34,724 bases of DNA, from assembly GCA_001898035.1 (NCBI GenBank), contig MKRX01000012.1, positions 1-34,724 of the forward strand, read 5' to 3'. This document shows positions 6,468 through 28,442 of this stretch, piece after piece. Both the position numbers and the translations under genes were made by a program. Below the pieces are notes generated by a model. It saw only the letters and a list, made by a program, of their open reading frames with translations. It had not been told where the DNA came from and ran no database searches. Positions within the stretch are counted from its first letter, which is position 1. Every line of letters begins with the position of its first letter. The stretch comes from Armatimonadetes bacterium 55-13. Lineage in GTDB: Bacteria > Armatimonadota > Fimbriimonadia > Fimbriimonadales > Fimbriimonadaceae.

Positions 6468-9097
<2,630 letters not shown>

Positions 9098-23427: not shown

Positions 23428-24348
23428 TTATTTTCCAATGAACCCGTGCATCCGTAGCCAGGAAGCAAAAGCCTCAAACCATCCGGTGCTGGTGGTTTCC
23501 TTGTTGTACATTCCAAATCCGTGTCCGCCTTGCTCGAACAAGTGAAACTCTACCGGTCTTTTGGCCGCCTTCCAGCTATCGATCAAGCCGAACCCGGCGT
23601 TGGCAAAGAATGGATCGTCAGCCGCCAGAGCGATGAACAGGGGAGGAGCATCTTCAGGAGCTTTGACGGCATTGAGCGGGCCATAAATATTTCCAATGAA
23701 GGCGGGCTTCGCATCTTCTCCGTATAAGGCCGTGGAGAGAGTCAGCATGGCGCCCGCGGAGAAACCCACCATTCCAACTTTATTGGGATCGACGTTCCAC
23801 TCCTTGGCGCGGGACCGGACTACTTGGAAGGCGGCTCTGGCATCCGCGATTTGAGGGGCCAACGGCATTTGGGAACTGCTCGGAGTTGGGGGTCGCTTCG
23901 CGGTTCCTGAGAACATTTCGCGCATGGAAGCTTCAAAGCCTGCCATGTCCGGCGGAGTTGGGTTCAAACGGTATTTAAGCACGAACGCAGCCACGCCTTT
24001 CTTTACCAATGCCTTGGCTACATCCCAGCCTTCGTTTTCCATGGAGAGCGTTCGAAAGCCTCCTCCGGGCGCCACGATGACGGCCGTCCCCGTGGCGATT
24101 TCCTTGGGGGGCAGGAAAGGAGTTAGCGTGGCGATGCTTACGTTTCGTGCGAATCGGCTGCCGTACTGAGAGTGCCAAGATTCCTCGGCCGTGGCCTCGG
24201 GAAGTTTCCCGGTGTTCAGGGTTATGGCGTTTGGTTGGTCAGGGATCGGAATGGGTTTCATCTTATCGCCTTGGGCTCTCGCCCAGACGGGTGAGCTCAT
24301 CACGATGATCACTGCTGAAAGCACTGCGCTTGATCTCATCTCTTTCAT
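23428..24348 (-). CDS. Secreted alpha/beta-hydrolase (esterase/acetylxylan-esterase-like)
   Basis: A 306-aa exported hydrolase with a signal peptide (MRSSAVLSAVIIVMSSPVWARA). The catalytic machinery is visible: oxyanion loop IVAPGGGFRTL (about 91-101), nucleophile elbow VGFSAGAML with Ser197, acid LAADDPFF (Asp244/245) and base EQGGHGFGM (His276). The RSRAKEWNVDPNKVGMVGFSAG stretch matches BD-FAE/esterase-lipase proteins that act on acylated plant glycans. With GH5, GH32 and SGNH genes nearby, a role in polysaccharide deacetylation is a reasonable guess, not shown. Confidence 0.88.
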   Translation of the reverse strand: MKEMRSSAVLSAVIIVMSSPVWARAQGDKMKPIPIPDQPNAITLNTGKLPEATAEESWHSQYGSRFARNVSIATLTPFLPPKEIATGTAVIVAPGGGFRTLSMENEGWDVAKALVKKGVAAFVLKYRLNPTPPDMAGFEASMREMFSGTAKRPPTPSSSQMPLAPQIADARAAFQVVRSRAKEWNVDPNKVGMVGFSAGAMLTLSTALYGEDAKPAFIGNIYGPLNAVKAPEDAPPLFIALAADDPFFANAGFGLIDSWKAAKRPVEFHLFEQGGHGFGMYNKETTSTGWFEAFASWLRMHGFIGK

Positions 24349-24530: not shown

Positions 24531-24959
24531 TCACTCCGATTCGATTGAGAACCCAAACCGAATCGCCGCTTGGAGGACCTCCAGATCGATATCTTTGACC
24601 GCCTTGAATCGAATGCAGTATCCGGTCACGGTCGCCTTCCCGATCGAGTCGCCGAACGTCTTGGCCAGGTAAGCCTTATCCTCGATCCCCAAAACATAAA
24701 CGGAGATTCCGGTCTTGTTTCCGCTCAACCCCACCCGATAAAACTCTCGACTCGTCCCATCCGCATACCGGATGGTGTACGCCCCGTACCCAATATTGGG
24801 ATTTGCCACGACTTTTCCATCCTCGTTCGTTCCGTCGGTAAACCAAAGTCTGCAACCAGGGGAGGTCTGGAGAGCCAGTTCATGCAGCGCTCGCAGATCA
24901 GTTTGCTTGGGCTCAGGATGACTGGCAAGATAGGATTCGATTTGTGTTTGGATATTCAT
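24531..24959 (-). CDS. DUF1801 (YdhG-like) protein
   Basis: A 142-aa cytoplasmic protein starting at ATG 24959 (CGGAGTGAAATG, good ribosome binding context). The segment IESYLASHPEPKQTDLRALHELALQTSPGCRLWF is the DUF1801 N-terminal helix-turn, and VVANPNIGYGAYTIRYADG, FYRVGLSGNKTGISVYV and AVKDIDLEVLQAAIRFG follow the family pattern. Function unknown. It is divergent from the DinB-like gene (65-bp gap) and followed, with a 182-bp gap lacking any other gene, by the alpha/beta-hydrolase on the same strand. That gap has an AT-rich stretch (24455-24500) that could hold a promoter for the hydrolase. Confidence 0.82.
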   Translation of the reverse strand: MNIQTQIESYLASHPEPKQTDLRALHELALQTSPGCRLWFTDGTNEDGKVVANPNIGYGAYTIRYADGTSREFYRVGLSGNKTGISVYVLGIEDKAYLAKTFGDSIGKATVTGYCIRFKAVKDIDLEVLQAAIRFGFSIESE

Positions 24960-25024
24960 TTCACTCCGAAGCTGAAGTGTACGACGGTATTTGCCTGCCC
25001 ATCGCGACTGGGTAAAAACCTGAA

Positions 25025-25525
25025 ATGGAGCTAAAGCGAGCACTGGTGGGGCAGTTTCGAGCGGGTCTCGCCATGTTGCGGGAGTGTGTGGAAAGGTGTC
25101 CGGACGATCTTTGGGAGTCGGTGGTAGACAAGCCGCCCCGAACATTTTGGCGGATCGCCTACCATGCGGCGTTCTACACCGAATTCTATTTGGGGCAAGA
25201 GCACACGGGCTTTGAGGCATGGGAGAAGCATGTGAATCACGCGATCATGACGTTTGCCGAGGAAGGCGAGGAACTGCCGCCCGAAGGAACGCTCTATTCT
25301 CAAAGCGAGCTTGTGGAGTACATCGATCTCTTGAGTGACCGGATGAGCGAGATCGTTGAAAGGCTCGATCTTGATTCCCCAGAAAGCGGCTTTCCCTGGT
25401 ACCCAAACTTTGCCAAGCTCGACCATGTGCTTTTGACCCTCCGGCATCTGGGCGTACATGTTGGGCAATTGCAGGAGCTTTTGTTTGGGCGGGGGATCGA
25501 GCCAGCCTGGATATCGAGGAGATGA
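25025..25525 (+). CDS. DinB-like family protein
   Basis: A 166-aa protein with the DinB superfamily layout: LKRALVGQFRAGLAMLRECVERCPDDLWE, then FWRIAYHAAFYTEFYL (first His) and LLTLRHLGVHVGQLQELLFGRGI (HxxxH pair). The usual role is metal-dependent thiol chemistry, but the substrate is unknown. The start is ATG 25025 and no convincing ribosome binding site is visible. It is the second clear DinB-type protein in the window (see 11152). Confidence 0.85.
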   Translation: MELKRALVGQFRAGLAMLRECVERCPDDLWESVVDKPPRTFWRIAYHAAFYTEFYLGQEHTGFEAWEKHVNHAIMTFAEEGEELPPEGTLYSQSELVEYIDLLSDRMSEIVERLDLDSPESGFPWYPNFAKLDHVLLTLRHLGVHVGQLQELLFGRGIEPAWISRR

Positions 25526-25685: not shown

Positions 25686-26978
25686 CTATTCTTCGACAAT
25701 CAGCACGCGGCGGCCCGGCTCTTCCTCAACATATTGGGTTGCCGCTTCCATGGTCGCGGCCATCGCCTCGTCAAGTGGCCACCCTGCATCCAAACCTATT
25801 GGCTTCAATGCGACTGAAGATTCGGAGCCCATCCTTACCGCTTCAAAAGCCGAGAAGCAAGCATCTCGCAAGGCATCTCTTCCTAAAGCGGGACGGGGCT
25901 CGGCGACATGGATCAAGTCATGCTGGCGGAGATAGTAAGCGGGCGTTCTGCGGATTTCACCCGGTTCCGGGTTCCACTCACGGAGGTCGTCAGCAAGGTA
26001 GCCCCCGGCCAGATCTCGCAACTCTCGGACCCAAGTCGACTCCGAATGAGGCATGATGATGGTCCGAACGTCTAGCTCAGTCATGTCACCAGTTACAATC
26101 TCAATGGGAGGCAAAACCACCTCCTGCTTTTCGCGGCGTTCTGGACGCTGGAGTGACTCCAGGTCAAAAACGGCGGAGGGCTTGTGCGCCAAGAGGTCAG
26201 AAAGGCTATATCGGTAGACAACGCCAAGGCGCGCCACGACAAGCTGACCAAGAGAATCGTAGGTAGCCCACGAGACATGCTTATCAAGCAAGTCAGGATG
26301 CTCAGGTAGGTCCCACTCAAACACTCGCCCGCGATCGCTGAAGTACCCTCGGTATCGAACCCTTAACTCTGGGTGAGCCGAGGTCGGCCGAATAACCCAA
26401 CCAGGATCATCATCACAATAGACTGAGTAACCGTTCTTTTTGACAACCCGTTCTTGTCCAAAGGGGCCAACGCGCTTGTAGCCATCACGTTCCAATCTCG
26501 CATACAGAACGCCCTCGTCTTCTCCATAGCCAGGGTTATCCAATAGCCCGAATGAGAAGGGAAAGTCGGCCTCCGATTCGTTGATGGCTTTTTCGGCATC
26601 GCGGCCACCACGGCCCACATTGAGTTCAAGTTGAGTTGGCGAACGAAAGAGTCCCCCGCCATGCCACGTGCCGATGTTGGGCCAATCGATCTCGGTGCGC
26701 AAAAAAGGCGGACGGCAGATCCCATTCCATGTATCTCCTACGGCCCCCATTGCCAGGTAAATCATGTACTGGCCGTCAAAGGAAACATCGCTCCGACTCT
26801 CGTAGATCCGACCCGAGAACCAACTCCCGTGCTCCATCTCGTCGGTGAGAGTGTTGAGCTTCAAAATGTGCGCGACCTTACTGGGTTTGCGCCGGATGAC
26901 AATGACGCAAGGCGCCTCCTTCGCCACAAGCAAGTGAATCCTTGCCGGTGGGTCCACGTTCGTTTTGCTTTCCAGCAC
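25686..26978 (-). CDS. Two-part protein: beta-rich N-terminal half and macro-domain-like C-terminus
   Basis: A 430-aa protein. Residues 1-290 look like a beta-propeller-type domain (SFDGQYMIYLAMG at 66-78, and CRPPFL...W..GGGLF at 88-111, a motif I recall from uncharacterised bacterial proteins), with further strands such as VSWATYDSLGQLVVARLGVVYRYS. From 292 the pattern is that of a macro domain: IEIVTGDMTELDVRTIIMP, GEIRRTPAYYLRQHDLIHVAEPR (as GxAxITxGYxLPxxxVIHxVGP), RDALRDACFSAFEAVRMGSESSVALKPIG and LDEAMAATMEAA. The conserved NAAN and GGGV loop of active macro enzymes is replaced (MPHSESTWVRELRDLAGGYL), so ADP-ribose hydrolysis may be lost. No signal peptide is visible. Confidence 0.6.
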   Translation of the reverse strand: MLESKTNVDPPARIHLLVAKEAPCVIVIRRKPSKVAHILKLNTLTDEMEHGSWFSGRIYESRSDVSFDGQYMIYLAMGAVGDTWNGICRPPFLRTEIDWPNIGTWHGGGLFRSPTQLELNVGRGGRDAEKAINESEADFPFSFGLLDNPGYGEDEGVLYARLERDGYKRVGPFGQERVVKKNGYSVYCDDDPGWVIRPTSAHPELRVRYRGYFSDRGRVFEWDLPEHPDLLDKHVSWATYDSLGQLVVARLGVVYRYSLSDLLAHKPSAVFDLESLQRPERREKQEVVLPPIEIVTGDMTELDVRTIIMPHSESTWVRELRDLAGGYLADDLREWNPEPGEIRRTPAYYLRQHDLIHVAEPRPALGRDALRDACFSAFEAVRMGSESSVALKPIGLDAGWPLDEAMAATMEAATQYVEEEPGRRVLIVEE

Positions 26979-28365: not shown

Positions 28366-28442
28366 TGGTACTCCGGACGGGATTCGAACCCGCGATCTTC
28401 GCCGTGAGAGGGCGATGTCCTAAACCACTAGACGACCGGAGC
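28366..28442 (-). tRNA. tRNA-Glu (anticodon CUC)
   Basis: On the minus strand the sequence folds as a cloverleaf: acceptor GCTCCGG pairs with CCGGAGT (one G-U at the first pair), the D-arm includes AGTGGTTTAGGAC, and the anticodon loop CTCTCAC gives anticodon CTC. The T-arm is CGCGGGTTCGAATCCCG, and CCA is encoded. The CUC anticodon reads GAG (Glu). A good promoter lies immediately upstream (28455-28483). Confidence 0.95.

Follow-up and report, generated by a model that had tools for sequence, protein, structure and literature searches.

The region considered here is a window of 34,724 nucleotides from the genome of Armatimonadetes bacterium 55-13, a 4.5 Mb assembly in 27 contigs that is 99% complete. 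Its minus strand carries a frame of 430 codons that is free of internal stop codons between 25686 and 26978 and that is also picked by a codon-usage gene caller. The features of this gene are the following, in window coordinates:

25686 to 26978, minus strand: single open frame of 430 aa, with a GTG start at 26978 and a stop codon at 25688-25686
26112 to 26978, minus strand: N-part, residues 1-289, with a propeller-like domain at about 11-280 (from relatives, alignments, AF2 model and PDB matches)
25686 to 26114, minus strand: C-part, residues 289-430, a divergent macro domain with its fold from about I292 (from profile, model and structure matches)
26119 to 26125, minus strand: AGGAGGT, Shine-Dalgarno-like, 4-5 nt upstream of TTG codon 289 (read from the sequence)
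26112 to 26114, minus strand: in-frame TTG, codon 289, a possible internal or relic start of a 142-aa macro-like protein
26046 to 26060, minus strand: lost ADP-ribose/catalytic loop 1, with IIMPH in place of I-V-N-A-A(N), residues 307-311 (alignment columns 23-27)
25776 to 25808, minus strand: altered phosphate loop, with L-K-P-I-G-L-D-A-G-W-P in place of F-P-x-I-S-x-G-x-Y-G-x-P, residues 391-401 (alignment columns 157-168)

With a per-codon caller score of 0.10, as compared to 0.2-0.3 for several neighbours, the gene ranks below most of the genes around it, and its GC3 is 0.60 where the neighbours show 0.63-0.76; both values would suit an accessory gene. The two halves are alike in GC3 (0.61 in the N-part and 0.59 in the C-part), and a synonymous-codon score came out no better for the C-part in its true frame than in a shifted frame and hence weighs neither way. 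A tRNA-Glu (CTC) is found about 1.4 kb away (28366-28442, minus strand), and a DUF1801 frame on the minus strand, the true start of which probably lies further inside, overlaps a DinB_2 frame on the plus strand by about 200 bases (24531-25525). Elsewhere in the window, a large gene that by eye resembles catalase-peroxidase adjoins a Fur/PerR-like regulator (6468-9097, minus strand).

The first-pass annotation had described the N-part as an uncharacterised, propeller-like domain, and this description held up. Its quoted motifs CRPPFL (residues 88-93) and GGGLF (107-111) are present, and the relatives share the motifs RRxPSK, SFDG, CRPPF and GGG. The AF2 model is rich in strands, with pLDDT values of 75-96 over most of residues 11-170 and 235-280, and fits a circular array of beta blades, the number of which is not fixed since residues 171-230 are modelled with low confidence. 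All of the 50 PDB neighbours listed read as propeller-containing proteins (Z 8.9-11); the corresponding Foldseek TM-scores are low (0.13-0.27) and were hence not relied on alone. At the same time, no WD40 profile of Pfam or NCBIfam matched the 430-aa protein or its close relatives, and the family as a whole gave no convincing match in Pfam, NCBIfam, PADLOC or PHROGs.

Relatives of the N-part align over residues 10-283, approximately, with E-values from 1e-97 to 1e-45, and in-family members are 37-58% identical to it. Of the 291 phylum genomes, 48 contain profile matches, the 43 named loci are spread over Armatimonadetes, Cyanobacteria, Planctomycetes, Verrucomicrobia, Proteobacteria, Actinobacteria and others, and further relatives reside on four Rhizobium plasmids. 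As such, the N-part points to a widespread propeller-like family that is unnamed in the four collections as tested. A search of genome contigs with the 430-aa sequence alone and a tblastn search of phages both gave no match. One locus (L017), by eye a part of an enolase-like protein, was discounted as a chance match. The host genome contains a second paralogue (G000:C1:137164-137571; L013/L152), which was matched through two stop codons and is probably a pseudogene, and a third one of 214 aa (G000:C6:452368-452805), and tandem copies are found in two other genomes (G102:C1:2507003-2508670 and G134:C452:2-1521).

For the C-part, the macro-domain motifs quoted in the first-pass annotation are all in place, namely GDMTELDV at residues 297-304, GEIRRTPAYYLRQHDLIHVAEP at 340-361, RDALRDAC at 367-374 and SVALKPIG at 388-395. 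A profile built from 17 macro domains that were taken from related genomes, with the 430-aa protein left out, matched residues 285-430 nearly end to end with 41.0 bits (E 2.4e-11), and the scores for macro homology of the C-part range from 36.6 to 41 bits; the best of 2,000 shuffled C-parts reached 5.8 bits and the best other frame of the window 5.6 bits. The protein has no PF01661 match at E-values up to 5 (curated cut-off 22 bits), no family was matched in Pfam and NCBIfam searches of the C-part, and phmmer against the PDB returned weak matches, the five best rows of which represent one MacroD-type protein (E 0.023). An AlphaFold2 model, whose input alignment included 45 macro rows from viral contigs, shows the three-layer alpha/beta/alpha macro fold with a pLDDT of 92.6 and a pTM of 0.86. 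In VIA-align, this model finds E. coli YmdB first (Z 19.6, rmsd 1.9 over 141 residues) within a list made up throughout of macro domains and of proteins fused to or designed from such domains, and the top Foldseek rows are almost all macro domains as well. In the other model, for which no macro rows or other homologues of the C-part were supplied, its first half is disordered, whereas its second half folds into the expected helix-strand-helix-strand unit at a pLDDT of about 50-76. Since the macro rows help to impose the fold of the first of these models, the independent sequence score is the main evidence. Residues 292-430, approximately, are a real, highly divergent macro domain, as the first-pass annotation had proposed, and the case illustrates that a lineage-specific profile can still detect a macro fold that has diverged beyond the reach of Pfam.

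The same annotation was right in noting that the ADP-ribose-binding loops are replaced. When compared to the 45 macro rows, the C-part carries IIMPH at the NAAN position, its GGGV.G stretch following loop 1 is deleted (alignment columns 39-44), IHTVGP has become IHVAEP, and Asp397 replaces a phosphate-loop glycine that all 45 rows possess. Kept are D298, T300, G325, G340, T345, H357, P361, L370, A390, I394, G399 and P401, among which Asp298 belongs to the GDxT motif, where macro domains contact adenine. The domain thus lacks the features that mark a MacroD-type hydrolase, namely NAAN and GGGV in loop 1 and a glycine-rich phosphate loop, and most residues for contacts to the distal ribose and the phosphates are lost. 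Because NAAN, GGGV and the phosphate-loop glycine are gone, canonical binding of ADP-ribose appears unlikely, and the lost contact residues argue against ADP-ribose specifically as the ligand.

The joining of the two parts had been called unusual, and our searches bear this out. All N-part relatives are stand-alone proteins of about 206-346 aa (285-346 aa for the close ones), save for truncated copies and for frames extended upstream by read-through, and no second fusion to a macro domain was seen in the 48 phylum genomes or at the 43 loci, so that the fusion was found in the host genome only. Two apparent fusions, L112 (405 aa) and L129 (762 aa), were dismissed when their sequences were read: the extra residues stand ahead of the domain, contain no recognised second domain and derive, at least in part, from read-through of high-GC DNA that yields arginine/proline-rich stretches. 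The gene-called loci of N-part relatives that were looked at have no macro gene nearby, the host genome has no other PF01661 match, and no stand-alone close homologue of the C-part turned up in the 291 phylum genomes. The presumed two-gene ancestor is hence not seen. A conserved flanking gene (23428-24348) was found in only 1 of 40 relatives, which left no empty site for comparison.

The join coincides with the point at which stand-alone N-part proteins end. The three closest aligned stand-alone relatives of the N-part end at residues 280, 283 and 289, the codons at the junction read AAG CAG GAG GTG GTT TTG, and the TTG at codon 289 lies three residues ahead of the macro fold. The AGGAGGT-TTG combination at this point is the only one of its kind among 381 internal starts in the window, AGGAGG was found 4-9 nt before 8 of 6,498 internal in-frame starts (344 genes, about 435 kb of the genome), and the chance of meeting it given three starts near the boundary is roughly 0.4%. 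The arrangement is suggestive of a trace of a former gene start. AGGAGG is also found near the own start of only 5 of 344 host genes and is not the usual signal of the organism, which is why the internal start may be due to chance.

From our point of view, these observations are best, and somewhat more probably than not, explained by a lineage-specific fusion of a propeller gene with a downstream macro gene, in which the macro half would serve as a non-catalytic module or be made as a free isoform. The ancestor would have possessed a stand-alone beta-propeller-like accessory gene followed by a macro-domain gene, and the first gene probably lost its stop codon, giving rise to one frame; this stop-loss route is probable because the join still shows the start signal of the second gene. 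The macro half retains its alpha/beta/alpha fold but has lost the loops for the distal ribose and the phosphates, and owing to this loss it is most likely not an ADP-ribosyl hydrolase. If functional, it could be a non-catalytic module on the propeller that serves in binding or dimerisation or, alternatively, act as a free 142-aa isoform that would start at codon 289. The fusion could be of recent date or even result from an error in one base; if it is real, it provides a fresh case of stop-loss gene fusion in which the old start signal is still legible.

A possible, if doubtful, alternative is that two separate genes are present, with the end of the propeller gene near codon 285 and TTG 289 as the start codon of the macro-like gene, and that the fusion represents a sequencing or assembly error or a stop loss that is very recent and has no functional consequence. 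The end points of the stand-alone relatives, the AGGAGGT-TTG at the boundary and the lack of other fusions in the relatives searched all agree with this, and a single base change in codon 285, from CAG to TAG, would turn one reading into the other. It has to be set against the uninterrupted frame in a high-quality assembly and the similar GC3 of both halves. The first-pass annotation had named evidence for two separate genes as a refutation, and its reading does not clearly escape this, given the position of the join and the start-like signal just ahead of the macro domain.

As the first-pass annotation proposed, the protein could also be a functional fused reader of a nucleotide-linked ligand; its degenerate macro domain would bind ADP-ribose, a nucleotide or an RNA end and would regulate the propeller. 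We regard this as unlikely. The macro fold is retained together with Asp298, G325, G340, T345, H357 and P361, and inactive macrodomains are known as readers, in which the activating residues are lost but the shape of the pocket is kept (PMC10789625). The C-part, however, has lost NAAN and GGGV as well as the phosphate-loop glycine that is otherwise invariant, and, judged by its alignment, it is unlike the known readers in that even residues that form the pocket are missing; in macroH2A, one Gly-to-Glu replacement in the pocket already suffices to abolish ADP-ribose binding (PMC8232725). One could speculate about a bifunctional gene with two products, a propeller-macro protein of full length and a free macro-like one that starts at the internal AGGAGGT-TTG, in which the degenerate macro domain has acquired a new ligand or partner after the loss of its ADP-ribose loops, an idea that we consider improbable.

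Least probable of all is a role as polymorphic-toxin immunity or double-immunity protein, in which the propeller family and the macro domain would each neutralise a toxin: a Fusobacterium macro domain gene adjoins an immunity gene (PMC6397177) and N-part relatives lie among MafI-family immunity genes in two Rhizobium plasmids, but a Pfam scan of the adjacent genes in the window shows no toxin gene, toxin/immunity families are not enriched among 133 neighbours of N-part relatives, and the catalytic loops of the C-part are lost. Both Rhizobium relatives are annotated as 'hypothetical protein' (L132 5962-6897 and L133 5959-6897), and the latter adjoins a large hemagglutinin-repeat gene. An immunity role is possible for some members of the family, with the Rhizobium context being a lead and not a rule: no Pfam family occurs more than twice among the 133 neighbour proteins, toxin or immunity families are absent from the most frequent ones, and the search for conserved neighbours mainly recovered cyanobacterial synteny. 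A DarG antitoxin was rejected as well, as no DarT scored over the cut-off in the genome (best 14.4 as compared to 22.5 bits, on another contig).

Among known systems, the MacroD/YmdB-type macro domains (PF01661; E. coli YmdB 5cb3, O. iheyensis 5l9k) resemble the C-part in fold and length and share its scaffold residues D298, T300, G325, G340, T345, H357 and P361, whereas the C-part has no Pfam match, replaced or deleted loops, an Asp for the phosphate-loop Gly and no last helix. A stand-alone degenerate macro domain of 173 aa (L018 1384-1905, G024) is likewise weak on PF01661 and altered at NAAN (GSNT); unlike the C-part, it passes the Pfam cut-off (35.7 bits) and is unfused, and the two are 29% identical over about 106 residues. 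By eye, this gene adjoins an ArdC-type antirestriction-like gene. Altered ligand pockets in macro folds are also found in macroH2A1.2 and macroH2A2 (PMC8232725), which are, however, eukaryotic histone fusions with loop changes smaller than the deletion in the C-part. As for the N-part, members of the unnamed propeller-like family, such as Rhizobium WP_239789655.1 ('hypothetical protein'), show 22-58% identity over most of it and the same motifs, but are stand-alone in all other copies seen. The beta-propellers of S9 peptidases and WD40 proteins (8wt1, 5ov3) share the overall fold of residues 10-275, approximately (Z 9-11 over 150-228 residues), and differ by an rmsd of 3.5-5.5 and 6-13% identity, with the N-part having neither a WD40 or peptidase Pfam match nor a catalytic peptidase domain. 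Overall, the 430-aa gene looks like an unusual variant of familiar parts.
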